A stretch of DNA of 14,407 bases from Thermoplasmata archaeon (GTDB taxonomy: Archaea; Thermoplasmatota; Thermoplasmata; Thermoplasmatales; Thermoplasmataceae), in the NCBI GenBank assembly GCA_021797225.1, contig JAKAAE010000029.1, positions 1 to 14,407 of the forward strand, given 5' to 3'. The position numbers and the translations under genes were made by a program. Positions 16 to 12,872 of the stretch are shown one piece after another. The notes under the pieces are model-generated. The model saw nothing but the letters and a program-made list of their open reading frames with translations. It was not told the DNA's origin and made no database searches. Numbering within the stretch: position 1 is the stretch's first letter; each line of letters starts with the position of its first letter.

Positions 16-46
16 GTATCAATTCCATTAAGGATAGATTCCTAAT
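16..46 (-). repeat. Degenerate leader-distal CRISPR repeat
   Basis: The leftmost repeat differs from the consensus at four positions: A for T at base 27, and CCT for TTC at 41-43. The other 47 copies look identical. Decay at one end only is typical of the leader-distal end of an array and supports the orientation given for the array. Whether a further repeat lies left of base 1 cannot be seen. Confidence 0.9.
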
Positions 47-2390
47 TTCTTGTATGTTTAAGGAGAGTTTCGCCACTAGATTTGTATCAATTCCTTTAAG
101 GATAGATTTTCAATAATATCAGTGCTGACCCTTCTGTTTTTTCTTCAGCGTATCAATTCCTTTAAGGATAGATTTTCAATAATGCCAGGAAGAGGATCCG
201 GAAGAGGCTTCGGTATGTATCAATTCCTTTAAGGATAGATTTTCAATTAGTAGAAACTTGCTTTTGAGCTAATATAGGTATTTGTATCAATTCCTTTAAG
301 GATAGATTTTCAATCTAAAAATCCACCGATTAAACCGCCTATTACGAAGTATCAATTCCTTTAAGGATAGATTTTCAATTTTCCCGTTTTTCATATAATA
401 ATATGCGGCTAAATCGTATCAATTCCTTTAAGGATAGATTTTCAATTACTTACCGAAGGGGTGGAAATTATGAGCATAGAAGTATCAATTCCTTTAAGGA
501 TAGATTTTCAATACTCTCAACACGGGCAAACTTCAACACGGTAGTACAGTATCAATTCCTTTAAGGATAGATTTTCAATATCCTAATTTTGAAATCATAA
601 TATACAATCCAAATCCGTATCAATTCCTTTAAGGATAGATTTTCAATCCATATCCCTATCCGTTCCGCCGTAAACAATAGTTGTGTATCAATTCCTTTAA
701 GGATAGATTTTCAATGTTTTGAGACCTGAGATTGTAGCCACGTAGTTATTAGTATCAATTCCTTTAAGGATAGATTTTCAATGATATGGATTATATCGCT
801 TAGCCCTTTGTGAGCATCGTATCAATTCCTTTAAGGATAGATTTTCAATACGTGAATTTTGAAAGAACCTTCGCTAACTACAAATGTATCAATTCCTTTA
901 AGGATAGATTTTCAATTTCAGCATCTGGCCATTTCTGCAACGCAAGTTTTTCGTATCAATTCCTTTAAGGATAGATTTTCAATCCTATTCCTCTATGCCC
1001 TCTTATACCGGCTCGAATGTATCAATTCCTTTAAGGATAGATTTTCAATTTAAAAATGAAAGGATATAGACAGGTTTCACTTCCTGAGTATCAATTCCTT
1101 TAAGGATAGATTTTCAATATTGGGTTCAGGAATGGCACGAATTCGCTTACGACTGTATCAATTCCTTTAAGGATAGATTTTCAATTATATCCCACGTCCA
1201 GGGCGTAGCCTCATCCTGAGAGTATCAATTCCTTTAAGGATAGATTTTCAATCGAGAAAGGGAACGGCACAGCAAACCAGTATATAAAGGTGTATCAATT
1301 CCTTTAAGGATAGATTTTCAATCATGACTGACTGGGAATATGCCTCCATGCCCATTCCAGTATCAATTCCTTTAAGGATAGATTTTCAATTTTCGGGAAG
1401 TATTTAGCTCTCTTTAACATGATTAAGTATCAATTCCTTTAAGGATAGATTTTCAATTAATTCGTGCCGTCCAGAGTGAAGGGCGTAACAAGGTATCAAT
1501 TCCTTTAAGGATAGATTTTCAATCGTTTGCCGATATATCCCCTTGATGGAATATATACGTATCAATTCCTTTAAGGATAGATTTTCAATTTCTACGACAT
1601 CAGGACTTAGCGTGAACCCGAATGCGTATCAATTCCTTTAAGGATAGATTTTCAATTTATAGTTGCTATGCTTTCCCATGCTCCCGTTGCGTGTATCAAT
1701 TCCTTTAAGGATAGATTTTCAATTTAATGGGGTGTATAAATCGCCTGTAGATTTCATGTATCAATTCCTTTAAGGATAGATTTTCAATTTTTTCATCTCC
1801 TGTATTGTGATTTCTTCTTGAATAGTATCAATTCCTTTAAGGATAGATTTTCAATTTCTCCAAGAAAAATGACACACAGGCGCACGATTGGGTATCAATT
1901 CCTTTAAGGATAGATTTTCAATCTCAAGGATTGACACACACGCCCCGCCTGCACAGATGTATCAATTCCTTTAAGGATAGATTTTCAATATGATGGAGGA
2001 GTTCGCCAGGAATGAAGAGCCCACGTATCAATTCCTTTAAGGATAGATTTTCAATCGAATGGGATATACTCCCCAATCACCATGAACAGTAGTATCAATT
2101 CCTTTAAGGATAGATTTTCAATTTCGGGGATTTCCGAGACGCCCAGTTCCTTGAGTTTGTATCAATTCCTTTAAGGATAGATTTTCAATGCTATCATCGC
2201 CAGTATGAAGACAAAGGCTGTTATGTATCAATTCCTTTAAGGATAGATTTTCAATCGGAACACCGGTTATAATCCCTGTACAATTCGTTGTGTATCAATT
2301 CCTTTAAGGATAGATTTTCAATAGTTCTTGGACTTCATAGACCTTTAAGAATTGGATATGTATCAATTCCTTTAAGGATAGATTTTCAAT

Positions 2391-2426
2391 ATGTACAACC
2401 ACAAATACGCTCAGTCTTCCGGCTAA
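2391..2426. other. Spacer 36 from the left, homologous to the spacer at 2592
   Basis: This 36-nt spacer matches 26 of 36 bases of the spacer at 2593-2628. Eight of the ten mismatches fall at every third position. Read from its second base it gives CTTTNTLSLPA, against CTTSNTISLPA in the partner. It was probably acquired from the same coding region of a related invader. Confidence 0.75.
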
Positions 2427-2457
2427 GTATCAATTCCTTTAAGGATAGATTTTCAAT

Positions 2458-2493
2458 CAATGTGGCAAACGGTTTTTTTCCACAGTTGGCACA
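2458..2493. other. Spacer 37, zinc-ribbon-like coding content
   Basis: On the minus strand this spacer reads CANCGKKPFATL with no stop. The C-x2-C-G-K motif is typical of a zinc ribbon or zinc finger knuckle, so the targeted gene may encode such a protein. The source element is unknown. Confidence 0.4.
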
Positions 2494-2591
2494 GTATCAA
2501 TTCCTTTAAGGATAGATTTTCAATGATATTCTTTTTAAGTCCTTGTTCATTCCGTATTTAGTATCAATTCCTTTAAGGATAGATTTTCAAT

Positions 2592-2628
2592 TATGTACAA
2601 CAAGCAATACCATAAGCCTACCAGCGAA
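2592..2628. other. Spacer 39, partner of the spacer at 2391
   Basis: This 37-nt spacer, from its second base, aligns without gaps to the spacer at 2391-2426, with differences concentrated at codon third positions. In that frame it reads CTTSNTISLPA. See the spacer at 2391. Confidence 0.75.
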
Positions 2629-3198
2629 GTATCAATTCCTTTAAGGATAGATTTTCAATTGTAAGGCTTTAGCAATAAAGAATATCAGGATTATTAGTAT
2701 CAATTCCTTTAAGGATAGATTTTCAATCGCCGCCAATTCGAACCCATTACTCGGGATCACAACGTATCAATTCCTTTAAGGATAGATTTTCAATAGGATT
2801 CTTTGGAATAAGCGAGCTTGTTGGAACACGTATCAATTCCTTTAAGGATAGATTTTCAATTTTAGAAAGCAGGCTCACCATTTCACCGGCTCCAATCGGT
2901 ATCAATTCCTTTAAGGATAGATTTTCAATGTGGTAATGCTTCTTGATGTCTTCTTCCTGGTAAGGGTATCAATTCCTTTAAGGATAGATTTTCAATCAGC
3001 CGGGGGAGATCGGGGTAAAGGTCAATGAGAGCCGTATCAATTCCTTTAAGGATAGATTTTCAATTACAAGTTCTCTCTCGGAGACATGGTTATAATCAGG
3101 GTATCAATTCCTTTAAGGATAGATTTTCAATTGTCTGGCTGTCTATGAATGATACAGATGTAACATTGTATCAATTCCTTTAAGGATAGATTTTCAAT

Positions 3199-3309
3199 AA
3201 GATATCTCACTAGTACTATAAAAATATTATTAAATTGACCAAGACACATATAAAAATATTTTAATACGATTATATTTTTATTTATATACTCGAAATACAT
3301 TATCATCTA
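3199..3309 (-). promoter_or_regulatory. CRISPR leader
   Basis: This AT-rich, gene-free stretch lies between the cas2 stop and the first intact repeat. It has no good ORF. On the minus strand it holds several TATA-like stretches (around 3217-3225, 3247-3256 and 3280-3289), any of which could start the pre-crRNA; the one near 3252 would start transcription about 30 bases before the first repeat. The 13 bases next to the repeat belong to a 14-bp element also found in the cas6 promoter. Leaders of this kind both drive array transcription and direct Cas1-Cas2 to the first repeat. Confidence 0.85.
3217..3260. repeat. 12-bp direct repeat in the leader
   Basis: TATAAAAATATT occurs at 3217-3228 and again at 3249-3260, a start-to-start distance of 32 bp, or about three helical turns. 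It may be a duplicated promoter element or a leader site used in adaptation. The region is AT-rich, so chance is possible. Confidence 0.6.
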
Positions 3310-3573
3310 TTATTCTAGAAAATTATCACTCTTATATTTTTGTTCCCCAAATTTAAGTTCTTGGAATATCTGGCTATCCATAATTTTCCACACATATACA
3401 ATTTCATCAGTCTTTAAAGATTTTTTTAGTAAATATTCAAGTTCCATTATTTGAGACTTATTTAAATTTCCACGAAAAACACTATTTTGTATGTGAATCA
3501 GATATAATTGACAGATTTTTTTAAAAATTTCTGTCCGATCTGCATGCACATCATATGAAACTATAATAAACAT
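3310..3573 (-). CDS. cas2: Cas2, CRISPR adaptation protein
   Basis: This 87-residue protein opens MFIIVSYDV, the first beta strand of the Cas2 ferredoxin-like fold, with the conserved Asp at position 8. Its length is normal for the family. Cas2 dimerises between two Cas1 dimers and acts as the ruler that holds the prespacer during integration. The ATG follows the cas1 stop TAG with no gap, and a strong GGAGGT at 3584-3589 inside the end of cas1 lies 10 bases upstream, which fixes the start. It is the last gene of the cas operon, and the stop TAA is followed directly by an in-frame TAG. The array leader begins immediately downstream. Confidence 0.97.
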   Translation of the reverse strand: MFIIVSYDVHADRTEIFKKICQLYLIHIQNSVFRGNLNKSQIMELEYLLKKSLKTDEIVYVWKIMDSQIFQELKFGEQKYKSDNFLE

Positions 3574-4530
3574 CTAATATTTTACCTCCATATTGAAGGG
3601 AACATATTGTGCAATATTCATATAATTCTTTATTAATTTAAATAATTCTATTTTTAACAGTTCTCTATTAGAAATATTCCGATTTAACTTTCCATAAAAA
3701 TATGATTCGTTCAACCATCTCTCCCACTCCTTAAGAAAGTCCTTTCTTCCATTATCATTTAAAAGTATACCATTTCCCTCTTTATGAAAACTATTTTTTG
3801 TGATAATATTCTTCTTTATAACCTTCAGAATAAACTTGTCTACAAGAAACGGCTTAAAAACTTCCGAAATATCGAGTACAAGAGAGTAACGTGAGGTTTC
3901 AGGTGAATGGTAAAAAGATATAGTTGGATTTAATGAAACATAACGTGATTGTGTTACAAGTTCTGAATAAAGCCTAGAATTGCCAAAGGAGATCAATGTA
4001 TTACCAAAATTATCTGGGGGATGTTTCACTCGCTTGTTAATTTTAAAGGTATCAGGAAGTAGTGAGTCCAACTTTTCGTAATAGTTTTTTCTCATCCTTG
4101 CTTCTATCAACATTAATTCTTCAACGGAATTGCCTTTAATCTCACTTACATCAAAATTAATTCCATACTGCGAAAGGAAGCTTTTCATATTCACTCTTAT
4201 TCCTTCCACAAGCCGGTTACAAAGGTCTAATCGCCTCTCTTTATTGAGATATAGTTTAACCTGTTCTATAGTAAGATCGCCACTGAAATATTGTTCCTTT
4301 GGCCAGAAACTCCCAACATAATTGCCATAATATCCAAAGAAATTTAATACAATATTATGCTTTGCTGAAGTATTTAAGGCTCCACTAGTTACACTGCACC
4401 CACCGTATATATTCAAAGATCTAATATTTTCTACAGGTATGCGCCTGAAACCGTCCCTTGAATTAAATCGTAATACTGATTCCTCAGCCTGTAGAACCCC
4501 ATTTCCCAAAATATAAAAATTTTCTTTCAT
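3574..4530 (-). CDS. cas1: Cas1, CRISPR integrase
   Basis: Cas1 joins prespacer ends to the leader-proximal repeat. I choose the ATG at 4530 (318 residues, MKENFYILGNG). It matches the usual Cas1 N-terminus, overlaps the cas4 stop as ATGA, and has AGGAGC ten bases upstream. An in-frame ATG at 4557 would add nine residues with no family resemblance. The beta-rich N-terminal half runs to about residue 90, followed by the helical catalytic domain. The metal ligands are visible: E143 in LIEARMRKNYYE, H208 in SFYHSPE, and the acidic pair D220/E223 in VLDISEVFKPF. Nothing suggests inactivation. Cas4 and Cas2 flank it, forming the adaptation module. Confidence 0.98.
   Translation of the reverse strand: MKENFYILGNGVLQAEESVLRFNSRDGFRRIPVENIRSLNIYGGCSVTSGALNTSAKHNIVLNFFGYYGNYVGSFWPKEQYFSGDLTIEQVKLYLNKERRLDLCNRLVEGIRVNMKSFLSQYGINFDVSEIKGNSVEELMLIEARMRKNYYEKLDSLLPDTFKINKRVKHPPDNFGNTLISFGNSRLYSELVTQSRYVSLNPTISFYHSPETSRYSLVLDISEVFKPFLVDKFILKVIKKNIITKNSFHKEGNGILLNDNGRKDFLKEWERWLNESYFYGKLNRNISNRELLKIELFKLIKNYMNIAQYVPFNMEVKY
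3584..3589 (-). promoter_or_regulatory. Ribosome binding site for cas2
   Basis: GGAGGT on the minus strand, ten bases before the cas2 ATG and inside the last codons of cas1. It shows that internal genes of this operon use Shine-Dalgarno initiation. Confidence 0.8.
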
Positions 4531-5039
4531 GACCAACAGAGCTCCTGATAACTGCATCCCTTACATACGGGTATTTTTACGGGCTTAGGGCATGCCCCAT
4601 CTAGAATCCTGTTCATTTCTAAAATTTTAGCATCTACTTTTTCAGAATTTTGTTCTACTTTAATTTTCTTCCTTACCTGAACAAGATGTATAAAACCTAC
4701 CACTTCTTGCTCTGTAATTTCTGATAAGATTTTCATATAATACTGAACCTGTAAAATTTGTGGTTCTGAAATAGATTTCCCTTTTTTTATTTCATGTATT
4801 TCAAGTACATTATTTTTTGATATAAAGTCGATCTGGCATATCCCATCTATAATCAATTCCTTTTTATTTCGCAAAAATGAATAACTATCCAGCACCTTAC
4901 CAACCTGTACGTGCTCATTTTCACTGAAGTTACCATATATGTTTTTATGTTGGAGCCAGAATCTAGTGTTGCATGTGGCAAAATTAAAGAAATCTAACCC
5001 CTTAATATTGTATTTTTTATAAGAATATGTTGTCATCAT
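4527..5039 (-). CDS. cas4: Cas4, adaptation nuclease with Fe-S cluster
   Basis: Cas4 trims prespacers and selects for PAM-bearing ends before Cas1-Cas2 integration. The RecB-like PD-(D/E)xK core is visible. Numbering from the ATG at 5048: H46 and G50 in EHVQVGK, D74 in QIDFI, E86 and K88 in HEIKK, and Q100/Y104 in the QxxxY motif. Four cysteines, C26 and C162/C165/C171, fit the Fe-S cluster. That ATG lies only two bases after the GGAGGT at 5051-5056, which is too close. The ATG at 5039 (MMTTYSYKKY) is 11 bases away and is my choice, giving 170 residues. The gene begins inside the end of cas3 and overlaps cas1 by four bases, so translation is probably coupled. Confidence 0.95.
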   Translation of the reverse strand: MMTTYSYKKYNIKGLDFFNFATCNTRFWLQHKNIYGNFSENEHVQVGKVLDSYSFLRNKKELIIDGICQIDFISKNNVLEIHEIKKGKSISEPQILQVQYYMKILSEITEQEVVGFIHLVQVRKKIKVEQNSEKVDAKILEMNRILDGACPKPVKIPVCKGCSYQELCWS

Positions 5040-6816
5040 TTTCTGCATTCACCTCCTCTGGTTTTAATAATTTTTGGGAAACAAACATTTGGTTATATAA
5101 AACTTTGAGCATTTTCATATAATATTCTGGTTTTTCAGAACCACAGATAATATTGTAAATATTTTCTTGTATCTTTAATGCAAATTTAGATCTATTTAGA
5201 AAATCTTCGTTCGTCATAGCTATGAGACGGCCTCCTCGCCTGCTTGTTATACCTTCATATATTATGTTAACTTTTTGAATTTTTTCATAGAAATCTTTAA
5301 CTACATATACTTTTGCAACTTCATTATATTCCATTTTATAGTGTGTTTTTGCATATACTATGTCATCTTCTGTTTCTTTTAGATCTGGTAGTTGAATTTT
5401 TATATTCCTCGTTATCCCTCGGAAATAACCAAAATTTATAAAAAAATTATTAATCCAGCTATGTATATCTAAAATGTCTTCCTGTGATAAATATAAATCA
5501 TTATCTATTTCCCTTTCAAACTGATCTATTTTAAAATATCTTTGCATAAGGGGCACTTTGGCCACTAATGCGTGTACCTGGTCCCTTAAATCATGATTTC
5601 CAGAAAATCTAGAAACTGTATATAAAAATCCAGCCATATGATTTTCACAGTAACACGCGCTAAAATTTTTTGGCGATAATGAAATTTTTTCAGTTATGTA
5701 TTTCATGATGTCCTTATAATTTAAATTAACTTTACTGTCCAAATTTTTAAGGACCTTTATCTGTTCAGTATTAACATGTATGAAAATTGATGCGTTTATT
5801 CCAGATCTTCCACTTCTACCTATCCTCTGCCAGAAATTTTCATAATAGGGTCCCGGTTCTAAATGTGATATTAGCGGGTTAATATTTATTCCAAGTTCTG
5901 CTGCATTCGTAGCAACTATTAATTTTTCATCCAATTTTTTTACACTTTTATTTGTAGATCTATGATAATAACCAGTCATTTCCAGTGGAAATATCCCTTC
6001 TCCGTTAAGTCTATATATAAATCTCTCTGCATCAATTTTATGGTCAAACATGTACATAGTTTTTCCTTCCATATTTACATGCACTTTTTCGTTTATCAAA
6101 GGTCTGTTTGTAAATGTCAGGCTTAATTTACCGCTTATCTTTCTTGCGTTTGAATCATCATCTGTTGTTTCTACCTCTATTACGAATGGAATTATGCCAT
6201 ATTTTTGCAGAATTTGGATTAGCTTTTGATTAGGAGTTCCTGAAGAAAAAACAAACTTTAAATTATTCCCGGTTGCCCTTGAAAGTAGTATGAGTGCAAT
6301 TATTTTACCTATGCTTTCCTCATCATAGGCATGGTATTCATCAATTATGAATAATGATATTCTCTTAAATAACTCTGACCACTGAAGTAATTTATTTTCT
6401 TTAATGGTGCCACCGTGCCGCTTATACGAATTTATATAAAAGCCGGAAACATAAAGTGATATAATATCTATATTGGTCAGCAGGATATCATTTTTTTCTA
6501 ACTTTTCTGGTATTCCCCATAGTCTATCTTTCCTTTTATCGGCTCCTGTAACCTTGTCAAAATGTATTTCCTCTTCCATGGTCACAGATTGCTCTGCTAT
6601 TTTATCATATAATTCTGCCATAATGGCATTTGTTGGCTCTGTAATTATAGATTTCGATCGACCAGTAAAAGACTGCGCAGAGGAAGAGAATGTGGGCAGT
6701 AGAAATCCAAATGTTTTACCAGCTCCAGTTGGTGCATGTATAAAAATGACATTCCCAGAACTTTTAATTGCATCGTTTGTATTATTTATAATATCTTTAA
6801 GTTCTTGTTCTGTCAA
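5017..6816 (-). CDS. cas3: Cas3 helicase (Cas3'), type I-D
   Basis: This is the superfamily 2 helicase that unwinds target DNA for the I-D effector. It has no HD nuclease, which in I-D sits in Cas10d. From a TTG at 6816 (599 residues) the motifs are Walker A APTGAGKT at 28-35, motif Ia TEPTNAIM near 59, the DEYH box at 159-162, SSGTPN at 190-195, ATNAAELGI at 301-309 and QRIGRSGRSG at 329-338. The C-terminal 250 residues are unassigned. The TTG has no ribosome binding site, and the same frame stays open for 58 more codons with no ATG, GTG or TTG. The real start is probably at 6980, with one base missing (see the next entry). It overlaps cas4 at its 3' end. Confidence 0.9.
   Translation of the reverse strand: MTEQELKDIINNTNDAIKSSGNVIFIHAPTGAGKTFGFLLPTFSSSAQSFTGRSKSIITEPTNAIMAELYDKIAEQSVTMEEEIHFDKVTGADKRKDRLWGIPEKLEKNDILLTNIDIISLYVSGFYINSYKRHGGTIKENKLLQWSELFKRISLFIIDEYHAYDEESIGKIIALILLSRATGNNLKFVFSSGTPNQKLIQILQKYGIIPFVIEVETTDDDSNARKISGKLSLTFTNRPLINEKVHVNMEGKTMYMFDHKIDAERFIYRLNGEGIFPLEMTGYYHRSTNKSVKKLDEKLIVATNAAELGININPLISHLEPGPYYENFWQRIGRSGRSGINASIFIHVNTEQIKVLKNLDSKVNLNYKDIMKYITEKISLSPKNFSACYCENHMAGFLYTVSRFSGNHDLRDQVHALVAKVPLMQRYFKIDQFEREIDNDLYLSQEDILDIHSWINNFFINFGYFRGITRNIKIQLPDLKETEDDIVYAKTHYKMEYNEVAKVYVVKDFYEKIQKVNIIYEGITSRRGGRLIAMTNEDFLNRSKFALKIQENIYNIICGSEKPEYYMKMLKVLYNQMFVSQKLLKPEEVNAENDDNIFL
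5050..5058 (-). promoter_or_regulatory. Ribosome binding site deciding the cas4 start
   Basis: GAGGAGGTG on the minus strand lies inside the end of cas3. It is two bases from the first ATG (5048) but 11 from the next (5039), favouring the latter. Confidence 0.7.
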
Positions 6817-6986: not shown

Positions 6987-7646
6987 TTATTCATCCCCAT
7001 AAAAATAATTTGCTATTTCGCTGGGTTTGACATTCTTTTTTATGATGTATCTGTCTGAATAATGATAAACAAAATCTGTTTTTATTGATCGTAATTTATC
7101 AAACCCATTTACAATTCCAGACGTAAATAAATTTACCCAGACATTATCCCTGTTATCGATAGATACCCTTCTACAAAAACCAAGAGTACTCTTCATATTT
7201 CCAAGTCTTATTGTAAATTTTTCTGGAAATCTATAGGACATGTTTTTATTATATATGATATAAAAATAAAAGTTATTGTTTGGAGAAAGACCCTGCCTTT
7301 TAATCCAGCTTCTGAAGGGCGACCTTTTAGATTTTATTATAGCCTGCTGGTCTGCATACCCCTCACTGAGAAATGATGTGGCCATATCATATACTCTCGT
7401 TTTCTGGCATCTGCCTATGGGAATACCAACAGTAGATACAAAATTGAAATTTTTTATTTCACTGTAATCAGGTTTATGTGATGTGTATTTAAAGGCAGTA
7501 TTATATATATTGAAGCTAAAGTTTATGGCATAATCAAGAGCGATATCACCAATCCATGGATAGGTGGTGGTTGAACCCGAAGCTCCAGCATCGAGCGAAC
7601 TGTTATAAAACAGTGGGTCTAAAAGTTGTAGCTCATATTTCTCCAT
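6987..7646 (-). CDS. csc1: Csc1, Cas5-family subunit of the type I-D effector
   Basis: This 219-residue protein resembles Csc1, the Cas5-type RAMP of I-D, which caps the crRNA 5' handle in the effector. The N-terminus (LQLLDPLFYNSS, then WIGDIALDYAIN near residues 31-42) follows the Csc1 pattern of a RAMP strand followed by a G-x-x-A-L-x-Y-A segment. The position between csc2 and cas3 fits. The ATG at 7646 is preceded by AGAGGAAG inside the end of csc2 and overlaps it by 14 bases, so the two are probably translationally coupled. No catalytic residues are expected. RAMP proteins diverge strongly, so the assignment rests on pattern plus context. Confidence 0.88.
   Translation of the reverse strand: MEKYELQLLDPLFYNSSLDAGASGSTTTYPWIGDIALDYAINFSFNIYNTAFKYTSHKPDYSEIKNFNFVSTVGIPIGRCQKTRVYDMATSFLSEGYADQQAIIKSKRSPFRSWIKRQGLSPNNNFYFYIIYNKNMSYRFPEKFTIRLGNMKSTLGFCRRVSIDNRDNVWVNLFTSGIVNGFDKLRSIKTDFVYHYSDRYIIKKNVKPSEIANYFYGDE
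6991..6998 (-). promoter_or_regulatory. Probable ribosome binding site for cas3
   Basis: GGGGATGA on the minus strand, in the last codons of cas5 (csc1), ten bases before the paired ATG codons at 6980 and 6977. Its spacing matches that of the cas2 site and supports 6980 as the original cas3 start. Confidence 0.5.
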
Positions 7647-8694
7647 CTTCTACTTCCTCTTTTCTTTTCGATCTTGAACTTTTTTGCTTTTTATTCCCAA
7701 ACTTGGAATACTGATAAAGCGCGGTTATGTCACCTTGCAACTGCTCAAAACTATCTTTCATTTCCTCAAATGAGCTGTTATTGATGCGCTTTATTACCGA
7801 AGAAAGATCTGACCCATTAAGTAAACTAAAACTACCGGTAAGACTTTTTTCTGTGTTGTTTACCATATATTTTTCAATATTTTCCATGGTCACAGATTCA
7901 TTTTCATTCCAGTCACGCGAAACAGTATAGGAAGAAATCGCCGGCTCGTTATGGCATCCACATAAGAATACAACATTGTTTTTTATATTGCTTCCTGTTA
8001 TGCTTGTCTGTGCTCCGTAAGAATTTTGCTTCAAAACCGAAAGCGCGAATATCAACGACTCAGGTGTAGGGTCCACTAGTGTTAGAAAAGAAGGAAAATA
8101 GACTCCTGGAACTATATATTCTGTTTCAAAGAGCGATTGCCTGTTTTGGCCCTTTTCATTATCCCACATTGTTCCGTTATATGAAAGGGAATTATGGGTT
8201 AATCTCTCAGTCAGCAATGACTTGTCACGTATAGAATACGAGTTGCTGTAAAGGATTCTTGCCGGTAACATCCCCTGTCCTGCATTGTCGCCTCCACCAG
8301 AAACTACTGTATCGCCCATAATTCCACTTGCAGGATTGTTTAACTGTTCAACATTGTTTAGAGAGTTATAACGGTAACTTTGGTCTATTACATTGTATAA
8401 TCTACAAAGTCTTATTCCATACAACTTCTCTTTTGATTTGAACTTTCTAGCAGGGATTTCTATAACCTCCTTCTCACTTATTCCATCTCCCATTTTAAAG
8501 CCTATAGTTTCGTCAGGTACTGTACTTCTGTCTATAAATGGGCCAATGGTTTCCCTTATTATTCCTATTACAATTCTATTTGGTCTATTCCTGGCCAGTA
8601 ACGGTATCTGTGTCTCAACTTTATCTAATTCTTCGTCTCCAGCAAAATATTCTGCTCCTATTTTTGTTTTTATATATTCCCCTAATTCACTCAT
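7633..8694 (-). CDS. csc2: Csc2, Cas7-family backbone subunit of type I-D
   Basis: Csc2 polymerises along the crRNA to form the effector backbone. The 353-residue protein shows the family's signature regions: RIVIGIIRET near 40-49, SYSIRDKSLLTERLTHNSLSYNGT near 152-175, and VPGVYFPSFLTLVDPT followed by SYGAQTSITG near 195-234. The segment that in other Csc2 proteins, as I recall, carries a CPDC-like zinc site (here about 110-145) has no cysteine and is Asn/Gly-rich instead. Its cysteines are C97 and the pair C245/C247 with H248. The C-terminus (335-345) is a basic KKQKSSRSKRK tail. The start overlaps the cas10d stop as ATGA, with GAGGTG just upstream. Confidence 0.93.
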   Translation of the reverse strand: MSELGEYIKTKIGAEYFAGDEELDKVETQIPLLARNRPNRIVIGIIRETIGPFIDRSTVPDETIGFKMGDGISEKEVIEIPARKFKSKEKLYGIRLCRLYNVIDQSYRYNSLNNVEQLNNPASGIMGDTVVSGGGDNAGQGMLPARILYSNSYSIRDKSLLTERLTHNSLSYNGTMWDNEKGQNRQSLFETEYIVPGVYFPSFLTLVDPTPESLIFALSVLKQNSYGAQTSITGSNIKNNVVFLCGCHNEPAISSYTVSRDWNENESVTMENIEKYMVNNTEKSLTGSFSLLNGSDLSSVIKRINNSSFEEMKDSFEQLQGDITALYQYSKFGNKKQKSSRSKRKEEVEDGEI

Positions 8695-9155
8695 TCCTTC
8701 ACCTCATTATTTTTACGACTAGCATATTCCTTAATTTTATTCCATTTCGCTATATTGTATAGCAGGGCAAATTGTGCTATAATATCCCTTTTTATACTCT
8801 GTGATGGCATCCCATTATATGTGTTCTCAATTATTTCCATAAATTTGTGTGCAAAGTTCAAACATGCCTCCTGTACTTCTTTAGAAGGTTGATCATTTCT
8901 TCTATTGGCGGTCTCGCTCAAGATTCCTGCTATTTTCTGTTCTATGTCCAGTTTATCGTTGTTGATCTTCCCTTTTTTGTCTCTTCTGTTTCTCTCATAT
9001 ACTGTAAAGGCCGTCCTGATTATCCATGAATAATCACTGTTTGAGCTCATTTTTGCATATTTATCAATAGGTAAGCTTATGTCTACCAGTTCCTCCATAC
9101 CTCTTCTCTCTTTTTCTTCTATATTAACCACCTCAAATTGTTTTATACTGCTCAT
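8691..9155 (-). CDS. Possible internally initiated Cas11d small subunit
   Basis: Type I-D small subunits are known to be made from an internal start inside cas10d. An in-frame ATG at 9155 (MSSIKQFEVVNIEE) has GGGG five bases upstream and would give a 154-residue, mostly helical and charged C-terminal fragment, of about the right size. Other in-frame ATGs follow in the next 50 codons (RRGMEEL, YAKMSSN), so the exact start is uncertain. This is inference from family knowledge plus a modest ribosome binding site. Confidence 0.4.
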   Translation of the reverse strand: MSSIKQFEVVNIEEKERRGMEELVDISLPIDKYAKMSSNSDYSWIIRTAFTVYERNRRDKKGKINNDKLDIEQKIAGILSETANRRNDQPSKEVQEACLNFAHKFMEIIENTYNGMPSQSIKRDIIAQFALLYNIAKWNKIKEYASRKNNEVKE

Positions 9156-11381
9156 TATTTCCCCAATACGGAACATCAGGCTCGGTTTCTTTGTAACACT
9201 GTTCCATATAATCTGGTATATATTCATTTTTTGCTGTTCCAGTTTTGATATAACTGATGGTATATCTCTGTATCCACGGTCTAATTGCGCTAATTTGCCT
9301 AGCATATCAAGAAAATATTGAGCATAAATAATCTGGTCAATTCTTAACTCATCCAATCCGTAATCCCTTACCCATGAGGGTGCAGATTCCCATTTGAACG
9401 TATAGTAAAATGTGTCCTCTGATTCAAACATTGTCGAAATTTTCAACTTTATACCTGTTTCTGAGATTATTTTAATCAGGTTCCGTAAAAAGTAAAACTG
9501 TGAAATAATGTTTTTCCGTGGGTCATTATTTTTCCGGGAGTCTTTATCACCAATATCTAAAAATGTTATGTTATGGTAATTTATTATTGGGATGCTTAGA
9601 TTGTTGGATAACCTGATTAAATAACTTTGGCTGACATCTTTATAAGACTCTTCACTATTATTTGCGATTCTAAGGTTCTCATAGTTTTGCAGAATATCAC
9701 CAATATCAATAAAAGGAATATAATCTCCAATATATGTCTGTACACACAGTGTGCTAGTTTTACTATAATTCTCTGTTCTAATTTTATTTTCAAGATTGCA
9801 CAAAGAACAGATCTTGCCATTGTACATATCAGAATATTCCAGCACTGATACCTTTAATCCTGTACCAGAAGTGGCATTAATACCAAAACTGTTTATTCTG
9901 GTGAGGTTCATATTATTAAAATACTCTCCGCACTGGATGCAGTTTTCTTCTTTCCCTCTTATATCTTTATTTATAACAATTTCATCAGACAAGATTCTAT
10001 CAATTAAAGAAGAATAAACGGAACTGTCGTCGCGTTTTATAGCATTTCGATTTAACATAGCAGATACGCGGGTTATAGTTTCCTGGAAGGTTGATTTAAT
10101 GTGCTCTTTATTTATATAAGAGTATGCCGCAGAAATTATAGTTTTAAATGTAATTGCGTCAATAGCTTTAACGTCTATCCCACTGTCCTGAAGAAGCTGG
10201 ATTTCATCCTCTATGTTTATGCCTGTACCTTTATCCAATTCAATTCTACGTAAAATCGCCGTTTTTACATATGCACTTTTTAAACTTATATCCTCATCTA
10301 TTGCATTATCATTATCTTCAATATATTTTATTTTGCCATCTTTTGATACATCGAACCCCCATAGTTTGAACATATCTGATATGTGAAATGCTTGATTTAG
10401 TCTGTCAAGTTTCTGATATAATAGAAGGGCAGAACCCCAAAGATTCATAAACACTGTTAAAAATTCTGGGGTTACATTTATTTCATCTGCAAAGGTAGTG
10501 TTTATTTGATTAGATGAAGGGCGGTAATTGGTAGCAATCTTATTATAATCGCTTGTTAAGGGCTTCAATTTACCTATTAGATAAGCTTTTAGCTTAATCT
10601 TTTCCTCATTTCCTATTTCCCTGTTTAATATAATCCAGTTCGGACTTTTAATAATTGCATCTTCTTTAAAATAGTCGCATGTGTACCTTATAATATAATT
10701 TCTGAGCAGGGATTGATGTGCAGGTTGGAACTCTATAATAGAAACGTTAATCATGCCATTATTTTTCAGATCATTAAGAATAGTATGACCGATTGAAAAA
10801 TCATCTAATTCTAGGCTCATCTTTGATGAGATTTTATCGCCGTCAGAAATAGTGTCTGCAAGTAGTATCAAAATCTTTTTTTTATCATCTTCTATATTGA
10901 AATTGTTTACTATGTCTTTACTCTGGTTTTCAACATTTAATATAATATACTCGATTTCCTTGAATATGTTTTCATCGTCTCTAATATAGGGAGAGTAAAT
11001 TTTTAGGATTGCCTGTTTTTTATTATTTAGAAGTTCTAGATAATCTCTTGGCATCCAGATGTTATCTGGCACAAGCTTATTAAAATCATGCAGAATCGCA
11101 GATGCGAAAAATAGCTTTATGTATTCTCTATAATTATCTAATTTAACATTTCTCTCTTTTAATTTATTTTCCAATATTAGCCCACCAATATATGCAGTAT
11201 TTATTACGTGAACTAAATAGGTTGTATCTTTATATATAGGCCACTTAGTACCACCTTTAGCTGGCATCAAAGGATAATTTCTTATTATATATGTCATAGG
11301 GCCAGAGTCCGAAAATAGGTCATGAAATGCTTGATTAAATTCTCTGGACCTGAATAACCGCGGAATATTGTAATTAATCAT
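8691..11381 (-). CDS. cas10d: Cas10d (Csc3), large subunit with HD nuclease
   Basis: Cas10d is the signature large subunit of type I-D; it recognises the PAM and its HD domain cuts target DNA. From the ATG at 11381 (896 residues) I see AKGGTKWPIYKDTTYLVHV at 41-59 with H58, the HD pair H98-D99 in ILHDFNKL, and D176 in LADTISD. A zinc knuckle follows with C481, C484, C525 and C528. I see no GGDD cyclase motif, as expected for Cas10d rather than type III Cas10. A TTG at 11399 would add six residues; the ATG, preceded by GGTGG and overlapping the cas6 stop by eight bases, is preferred. It ends in an ATGA overlap with csc2. The 3' third probably also encodes Cas11d. Confidence 0.95.
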   Translation of the reverse strand: MINYNIPRLFRSREFNQAFHDLFSDSGPMTYIIRNYPLMPAKGGTKWPIYKDTTYLVHVINTAYIGGLILENKLKERNVKLDNYREYIKLFFASAILHDFNKLVPDNIWMPRDYLELLNNKKQAILKIYSPYIRDDENIFKEIEYIILNVENQSKDIVNNFNIEDDKKKILILLADTISDGDKISSKMSLELDDFSIGHTILNDLKNNGMINVSIIEFQPAHQSLLRNYIIRYTCDYFKEDAIIKSPNWIILNREIGNEEKIKLKAYLIGKLKPLTSDYNKIATNYRPSSNQINTTFADEINVTPEFLTVFMNLWGSALLLYQKLDRLNQAFHISDMFKLWGFDVSKDGKIKYIEDNDNAIDEDISLKSAYVKTAILRRIELDKGTGINIEDEIQLLQDSGIDVKAIDAITFKTIISAAYSYINKEHIKSTFQETITRVSAMLNRNAIKRDDSSVYSSLIDRILSDEIVINKDIRGKEENCIQCGEYFNNMNLTRINSFGINATSGTGLKVSVLEYSDMYNGKICSLCNLENKIRTENYSKTSTLCVQTYIGDYIPFIDIGDILQNYENLRIANNSEESYKDVSQSYLIRLSNNLSIPIINYHNITFLDIGDKDSRKNNDPRKNIISQFYFLRNLIKIISETGIKLKISTMFESEDTFYYTFKWESAPSWVRDYGLDELRIDQIIYAQYFLDMLGKLAQLDRGYRDIPSVISKLEQQKMNIYQIIWNSVTKKPSLMFRIGEIMSSIKQFEVVNIEEKERRGMEELVDISLPIDKYAKMSSNSDYSWIIRTAFTVYERNRRDKKGKINNDKLDIEQKIAGILSETANRRNDQPSKEVQEACLNFAHKFMEIIENTYNGMPSQSIKRDIIAQFALLYNIAKWNKIKEYASRKNNEVKE

Positions 11382-12075
11382 TAAAATCCACCATCCCAAA
11401 CCCTAATTGTGGGCTTTTTCCAATTCCTGTAGAAAGAATAGTCTGTAAGATATCTTCGCTACATGAAATGACAAATTTTATGATAGAACAAGGCAACTGA
11501 ATGTCATTTAATCGTATCAATTTCGGTTTTCCGTAAACAATATTTAACCCCTGAATATTCTCCTGGGTTCCCAATATTTTACTTGCTTTTCGTTCTATGG
11601 AGTCAATTAATAACTTTTCAAACAAAGGTTCCCCATATCTCACATACCTGCCATTCTTATCTTTAAGTAAAACAGGGCTTCTTGTTACTAAGGATACAAC
11701 AGAATTTGAAATTTTTATCTTAAATAGTTTATCAGAATAGATTTGTAACTTTGTTGGCCCTACATCTATATATTTCCCCTTTGATAAAATGGTGTTAAGT
11801 ACTTTCAACATATTTTCATCTCTGGATGATAAAATTAACATAACTCTCTTCGCATAAAAACCTTCTTTTTTAAATTTACAGTATCCTGACGGTATTAATT
11901 GGCTCATTACAAATAGTGGGACCGTTGCTCCATGGATATTGGCGGAAAGAGAAGGGTCAACTTCCTTTATATTTTTTAGTAAGTTTGAATACACCAGATA
12001 CTGATGACTGTATGGAATAACACTGAATGTTGGGTTATCCAAGCTGATTACAAGTTTTGAATATATTTTATCCAT
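11374..12075 (-). CDS. cas6: Cas6, pre-crRNA endoribonuclease
   Basis: Cas6 cuts within the repeats to release crRNAs carrying an eight-base 5' tag, here probably ATTGATAC. The 233-residue protein has two RAMP halves and ends with the Cas6 glycine-rich loop, GIGKSPQLGFGMV at 217-229. H48 in SANIHGA sits where the catalytic histidine of archaeal Cas6 enzymes usually lies, and Y26 and Y29 in HQYLVYS may correspond to the conserved N-terminal tyrosine region. It is the first gene of the operon. The ATG lies about 25 bases after a TATA box, so the mRNA is probably leaderless. Its 3' end overlaps cas10d by eight bases. Confidence 0.93.
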   Translation of the reverse strand: MDKIYSKLVISLDNPTFSVIPYSHQYLVYSNLLKNIKEVDPSLSANIHGATVPLFVMSQLIPSGYCKFKKEGFYAKRVMLILSSRDENMLKVLNTILSKGKYIDVGPTKLQIYSDKLFKIKISNSVVSLVTRSPVLLKDKNGRYVRYGEPLFEKLLIDSIERKASKILGTQENIQGLNIVYGKPKLIRLNDIQLPCSIIKFVISCSEDILQTILSTGIGKSPQLGFGMVDFND

Positions 12076-12157: not shown

Positions 12158-12192
12158 AAAATATTAATTAATATAGTAATAATATCATTCTA
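12158..12192 (+). promoter_or_regulatory. Promoter of csa3
   Basis: An AT-rich AAATATTAATTAATATA stretch, centred about 26 bases before the csa3 ATG, is a plausible TATA box for a leaderless transcript; there is no Shine-Dalgarno sequence. It includes a perfect 14-bp palindrome, ATATTAATTAATAT at 12161-12174, which could be a further operator or mere AT-richness. Confidence 0.45.
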
Positions 12193-12872
12193 TGACTGTT
12201 GGTCTCGCGATATCAGGATTTAAGCCCGAGCTAGTTTTAGGTCCATTTTACTACAGGGAATTGCCAATTACAAAAATGTTAATTTTATATTATACTAATC
12301 ATGAAAAATCAATATCAGCTACAGAGAAAATTGAACGTAAATTGAGAGACTTTGACATTCTGGTACACAAAGTTGAAATTAAAAACATATTTGATTTCTA
12401 TGAAGTCTATATGAACACTCTCGAAATGACAAAAAAATTTAATATAAGCTGGGTTAATGAAACAGCAGGTCCTGGAATTGCAATTTCTTCAATAACCCTT
12501 GCAATGAAAGACAGAAAAATCAGCTATGTATATTTTCATGAATCAGCAGACGGAAGGCCAGCCTACACGGATATTATAAAAAGTTATAATCTTGAGATTT
12601 TTAATAAAGAAAAGACAAAATATATACCCATTATAAAGATAATATTCAATGAAACCTTAATTACAATAAATGGTTTATCAAGGTTATTATCTATATCCGA
12701 ATCTACAATTTCTCGGAAACTGTCTATACTTTCTTCAATGAATTTTATATCATCAACTGGATCAGGTCGTGGCAACAGCGCTAAAAAATTTAGGCTTACT
12801 GAAACCGGCAAAAAGGTTTATAACTATTATTCAGAAGCGTCAGAATCTAACAAAGAAACAAAATCTGAGTGA
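12192..12872 (+). CDS. csa3: Csa3-like CARF-HTH transcription regulator
   Basis: This 226-residue protein has the two-part plan of Csa3. A Rossmann-like CARF domain covers roughly residues 1-135, with WVNETAGPGIAISSITLAM at 87-105 in the place of the ligand-binding loop and following helix. A winged helix-turn-helix covers roughly 148-213: INGLSRLLSISESTISRKLSIL holds the recognition helix and SGRGNSAKKFRLTETGKKVY the wing. Csa3 proteins bind cyclic oligoadenylate or related ligands and activate or repress cas genes and leaders. It is divergent from the cas operon across a 116-bp gap with palindromes. The N-terminus differs from better known Csa3 proteins, so the subgroup (activator or repressor) is unclear. 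No cyclase is visible in the window to make its ligand. Confidence 0.85.
   Translation: MTVGLAISGFKPELVLGPFYYRELPITKMLILYYTNHEKSISATEKIERKLRDFDILVHKVEIKNIFDFYEVYMNTLEMTKKFNISWVNETAGPGIAISSITLAMKDRKISYVYFHESADGRPAYTDIIKSYNLEIFNKEKTKYIPIIKIIFNETLITINGLSRLLSISESTISRKLSILSSMNFISSTGSGRGNSAKKFRLTETGKKVYNYYSEASESNKETKSE

Follow-up and report, generated by a model that had tools for sequence, protein, structure and literature searches.

The window, meaning the whole 14,407-nt stretch of DNA that was analysed (contig JAKAAE010000029.1 of a Thermoplasmata archaeon), carries a CRISPR array, a set of cas genes, a putative regulator gene and, beyond the regulator and to the right of the cas genes, a gene for a solute-binding protein. 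The best named relatives of this protein, among the best 120 of 202 matches, belong to Candidatus Thermoplasmatota, Acidiplasma and Ferroplasma, and they place the host most probably with Ferroplasmaceae-like archaea. The features are as follows.

16..3198, minus strand (inferred transcription strand): CRISPR array, 47 exact 31-nt repeats and one degenerate repeat
16-46: degenerate repeat at the left array end, probably the trailer end
2391..2426, plus strand: spacer 36, 36 nt, forward frame CTTTNTLSLPA from base 2392
2458..2493, plus strand: spacer 37, between spacers 36 and 39
2525..2560, plus strand: spacer 38, between spacers 36 and 39
2592..2628, plus strand: spacer 39, 37 nt, forward frame CTTSNTISLPA from base 2594
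3199..3309, minus strand: probable leader between the array and cas2, assigned by position only
3310..3573, minus strand: cas2 (TIGR01573, 33.4 vs 24.5 bits; best PADLOC model Cas2b)
3574..4557, minus strand: cas1 (TIGR03641, 323.2 vs 304.1 bits; I-B class Cas1b in both libraries)
4527..5048, minus strand: cas4 (PADLOC Cas4b, 2.3e-31; NCBIfam TIGR00372, 51.1 bits, under the cut-off of 65)
5017..6816, minus strand: cas3' helicase of the I-D class (TIGR03158, 70.1 bits, narrowly above the cut-off of 69.1)
6987..7646, minus strand: csc1/cas5d (TIGR03159, 43.9 vs a cut-off of 41.4)
7633..8694, minus strand: csc2/cas7d (TIGR03157, 63.9 vs 38; PF18320, 75 vs 25.5)
8691..11399, minus strand: probable cas10d (csc3), a divergent large subunit of 902 aa
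11374..12075, minus strand: cas6 (TIGR01877, 63.9 vs a cut-off of 58.65)
12192..12872, plus strand: Csa3-like regulator with CARF and HTH parts, a weak assignment (PF19810, 31.8 vs 30)

Adaptation modules do not define the subtype of a CRISPR-Cas system, and the locus is assigned to type I-D because the effector genes decide. Both csc1 and csc2 clear their curated cut-offs, as cas3' does narrowly with the model of the I-D class, while no cas1, cas2 or cas4 of the I-D class was found and the best models for these three genes were of the I-B class (Cas1b, Cas2b and Cas4b). Judged by these gene models, the locus is a mosaic of I-D effector genes and I-B-like adaptation genes (3310-5048). The cas3' reading frame opens with a TTG codon at 6816, has a Walker A-like motif near its N-terminus and leaves 170 bases to csc1; its N-terminus may be incomplete, through an unusual start, a truncation or a frameshift. 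The regulator, encoded on the strand opposite to the cas operon, combines a CARF-like N-domain with a winged helix and reaches 22.6 with TIGR01884, under the cut-off of 60.2. In a review of type I-D systems, among the parts of it used here, the mode of action of the regulator is listed as an open question (PMC10212523).

The large subunit matched no model in Pfam, NCBIfam or PADLOC; of 7991 candidates that were scored, 9 qualified as sequence relatives at E <= 0.001. In a fold search with a low-confidence model (pLDDT 58.6), the best match was the type I-D Cascade chain 7sbb_I (E 2.7e-6) and the second was Cas10d 6yes_B (E 6.8e-3), both with a TM of about 0.2 and an rmsd of 25-30. A search of its profile against PDB sequences found no Cas10d, and a Cas10d profile run on genome_contigs gave 8 pattern matches, none of which was confirmed. 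Within the 10-row alignment, considered with the N-terminal HD domain of Cas10d in view, H104-D105 is invariant; the two PADLOC Cas10_Id models each match one of the ten members, and the two Cas8b models match six (weakly) and one. From the fold matches, the gene is probably cas10d (csc3).

The array holds 47 spacers of 34-39 nt. We infer that its leader lies at the right and its trailer at the left, because the degenerate repeat is on the left, the cas genes and the probable leader are on the right, and the repeat ends in ATTGATAC on the minus strand, which we take to resemble the usual 5' handle. Folding of the repeat on either strand was unremarkable and gave no clue to the orientation. A 26-nt core of the repeat had no match in genome_contigs or in viral_contigs, and 30 nt of the whole repeat, in either strand, had no match within the literature text searched. 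With a leader at the right end, spacer 36 is the older and spacer 39 the newer of the two spacers considered below.

Aligned without gaps, spacers 36 and 39 are identical at 26 of 36 bases, with mismatches at positions 10, 12, 13, 19, 20, 22, 25, 28, 31 and 34. Scored as matches minus mismatches, the pair reaches 16, the highest value among 1081 pairs on 2 strands, and the runner-up reaches 9. A resemblance of this size might arise by chance among 1081 pairs, and Markov-1 random sets of 47 spacers each do come near it at the DNA level, with maxima of 13 in 12 sets and 14 in 400. None of the 400 sets attained the observed value, however, a Gumbel fit to them gives P of about 0.001, and none of 200 translated sets attained the observed translated score; together with the codon-phase signal described next, this leaves chance hardly credible. 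The likeness that the sequence-only reading had pointed out is thus real and an outlier, and the two intervening spacers that it had counted are present as spacers 37 and 38. Its coordinates hold for spacer 36, whereas spacer 39 starts at 2592 and not at 2593, the first base having been dropped.

The mismatches follow a codon register, as had been proposed from their three-base spacing: eight of the ten are congruent modulo 3 (hypergeometric probability times three phases 0.0017; simple binomial 0.010). The proposed translations CTTTNTLSLPA and CTTSNTISLPA were also reproduced, and 9 of their 11 residues are identical. The mismatch phase is common to one forward and one reverse frame, both of them open. 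In the forward frame the differing codons comprise six synonymous and two replacement changes (BLOSUM 52), and in the reverse frame, which reads LAGRLSVFVVVH and FAGRLMVLLVVH, they comprise four of each, with 8 of 12 residues identical (BLOSUM 39). The forward frame is therefore favoured as the coding frame, the reverse one fitting worse. A frame starting with ATG was rejected, since only 4 of 12 residues are identical in it and a stop falls within spacer 36.

The translated score of 52 compares with 31 for the next-best pair of array spacers and with a maximum of 39 in the 200 random sets. When ten random substitutions were placed on spacer 36, 0.04% of 20,000 trials attained the best-frame score of the real pair and 0.7% attained its best-frame identity. 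The wobble base differs in 8 of 11 codons and the other bases in 2 of 22 positions (Fisher P = 4e-4, with the frame picked after the data had been seen), a codon signal carried by 11 codons only. Well supported by these comparisons is the view that both spacers derive from protein-coding sequences that are homologous and have evolved under purifying selection, which agrees with the earlier proposal of separate acquisitions from such genes. Because the wobble sites are near saturation, the source genes would be old homologues and not strain variants or escape mutants.

A protospacer of spacer 36 or 39 was found neither in the phage and plasmid records nor in the viral contigs. By blastn the whole array gave matches at E 1 and above in phages and at E 0.3 and above in plasmids; when the two spacers were searched singly against phages, one search gave a match at E = 5 (20 bases, a Pseudomonas phage) and the other gave none. 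An 11-codon pattern tolerant of synonymous changes had no locus in viral_contigs. The same pattern with the Cys codon left out and two codons made stricter had six (L001-L006), all of which were inspected: two have short reading frames (25 and 55 aa) and the other four have long ones. Two 20-nt halves that take in both spacers gave 3 and 4 loci, and the right-hand 21 nt, inferred to be PAM-proximal, of the two newest spacers gave one (L014) and none. Comparison of each of the 14 viral-contig loci with every spacer of the array (47) yielded no convincing protospacer, the best match of 25/36 being circular, as its locus had been picked by the search pattern itself. By a rough count, the numbers of viral-contig matches are at about chance level.

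The L014 match, at 4250-4270, agrees exactly with the right-hand 21 nt of spacer 47, the newest, and falls within a phage reading frame of 1080 aa that by eye lies in a tail region. As a protospacer of spacer 47 it was judged a chance match, because the remaining 15 bases agree at just 2 positions. Spacer 37 (2458-2493) reads in reverse as CANCGKKPFATL, by eye a zinc-ribbon-like peptide, and the corresponding codon pattern had no match in the viral contigs.

Spacers 36 and 39 had been offered as two sequences by which to identify a virus or plasmid family. Near versions of their shared peptide (TTTNTLTLPA, TTWNTMTLPA and TTTNTLSLPA) occur in proteins of the viral contigs. The PHROGs comparison covered the long reading frames of L002, L003 and L004, with matches to families of tail fibre, baseplate wedge and unknown function; the fourth long frame, in L006, repeats the stretch present in L002 and was left out. 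Because near versions are spread over such different viral proteins, the peptide is a poor family tag and by itself does not single out a family. The protospacer search that it had suggested brought up neither a single family with the peptide nor protospacers in unrelated or non-coding sequence.

The sources might also be transposon genes, integrated elements or the chromosomes of relatives in place of viruses and plasmids. Nothing direct supports this, the only precedent being a spacer of Ferroplasma acidiphilum that, in the part of the genome report used here, is described as recurring without a change inside a predicted helicase/nuclease gene of F. acidarmanus (PMC5473848). Against it, the GC content of the spacers is 0.425 and that of the remaining window 0.332, so the sources are unlike the surrounding host stretch, and the best match of any spacer to the rest of the window (25/36) is within the null, 25 having been attained by 2 of the 30 random windows as well. 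Sources of these kinds are on this account unlikely. Self-targeting of cas3 by spacer 38, at 25/36, lies within the same null and was rejected.

The right edges of spacers 36 and 39 coincide exactly, spacer 39 being one base longer at the left, and on the inferred orientation this common edge is the PAM-proximal one. In the type I-D adaptation of Synechocystis, according to the relevant part of the review, Cas4 cuts the PAM end (PMC10212523), and the type I-D PAM is given as GTN in the portion of the structural study drawn on here (PMC9123187). The coincidence would be accounted for if the same PAM had been sampled in each of two orthologous genes; by a rough estimate, however, it amounts to no more than an about five-fold enrichment over offset overlaps if PAM sites occur once in 16 positions per strand. 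Whether knowledge of adaptation in other I-D systems transfers to the present locus is uncertain, because the adaptation genes here are I-B-like.

The most probable reading, in which we place moderate confidence, is that the same PAM-defined site was acquired twice, from orthologous genes carried by two viruses or plasmids that are only distantly related. Cas1, Cas2 and Cas4 of the I-D system would have excised this site from the gene of each invader, and spacers 36 and 39 would have been inserted at different times, with two other acquisitions between them. At the second target the crRNA of spacer 36 would meet ten mismatches, which lie, counted from the inferred PAM-proximal end, at 3, 6, 9, 12, 15, 17, 18, 24, 25 and 27. 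With so many mismatches, among them positions 3 and 6, spacer 36 probably would give no protection there, so that a new spacer would be selectively useful. Mismatches at these two positions would also suit a virus that first supplied spacer 36, then mutated to escape it and, as this mutant, supplied spacer 39. Ten mismatches, six purely synonymous codons and wobble sites near saturation are far beyond the scale of escape, however, and the idea, very improbable on these grounds, was rejected because the divergence is too great.

The main rival of two acquisitions from two invaders is a single invader with two paralogous genes, or with one gene of repeated domains, in which each copy bears the same motif. 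This rival predicts the same codon phase, identity and edge; it suits a pair separated by two spacers only, and peptides similar to the shared one were found in large viral structural proteins such as tail fibre and baseplate proteins. On the other side, the near-saturated wobble sites would make any duplication old, and nothing positive speaks for paralogues, which we consider a serious but clearly less probable source of the pair. The sequence-only reading had spoken of two diverged invaders that might have been met close in time. Homologous coding sources are borne out and separate invaders are likely, with paralogues in one invader predicting the observations equally well; closeness in time is unsupported, as the order in the array yields order and not duration.

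Other type I complexes ignore every sixth base of the target. Counted from the inferred PAM-proximal end, eight of the ten mismatches of the pair fall on multiples of three, all eight of them wobble bases, and four fall on multiples of six. If the I-D complex also ignores every sixth base, these four wobble mismatches would be invisible to it, and synonymous drift would then do less harm to a spacer whose PAM sets the codon wobble in the ignored register than to a spacer in either of the remaining registers. It has a slim chance of being true that the second acquisition was primed, the crRNA of spacer 36 having weakly bound the diverged target and driven re-acquisition at the same PAM in this I-D system; what suggests such priming is the coincident edge and the register of the mismatches. 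As to priming in type I-D systems, the review reports, in the part used here, an absence of data (PMC10212523). The I-D Cascade structure paper contains none of the terms "sixth", "flipped" and "every six" (PMC9123187).

Among known systems, the type I-D locus of F. acidiphilum Y(T) has the same gene order, cas6-cas10-cas7-cas5-cas3-cas4-cas1-cas2, and is like the window in the length of its repeats, 30 and 31 bp, and of its main array spacers, 34-39 nt. Its spacers, like those of the window, had no match in known viruses or plasmids, and the part of the report used here does not mention related spacer pairs (PMC5473848). In Sulfolobus islandicus and its viruses one archaeal repertoire likewise faces diverged versions of viral sites, and spacer-protospacer divergence was analysed up to 10 mismatches; in the sections of that study consulted the comparison is of spacer with virus, whereas here it is of spacer with spacer inside one array (PMC6452263). 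The CRISPR loci of I-plasma and G-plasma, studied with the AMDV viruses, are also Thermoplasmatales arrays. According to the passages of that study used here, only the new, leader-end spacers of I-plasma matched sampled viruses and most virus matches of G-plasma lie at the new array end; such matches are present there, while none was found for the array of the window (PMC3330103).

The storage of the same spot twice is ordinary CRISPR behaviour. The pair supplies one conserved motif in two sequence variants, and the comparison of spacer with spacer, combined with codon phase, can point to targets that are homologous, and to their probable coding strand, when no viral genome is available. The combined peptide CTT[TS]NT[LI]SLPA, which with a GTN PAM would continue as [NK] followed by T, can serve as bait for a mobile-element family that was not found in the collections searched.
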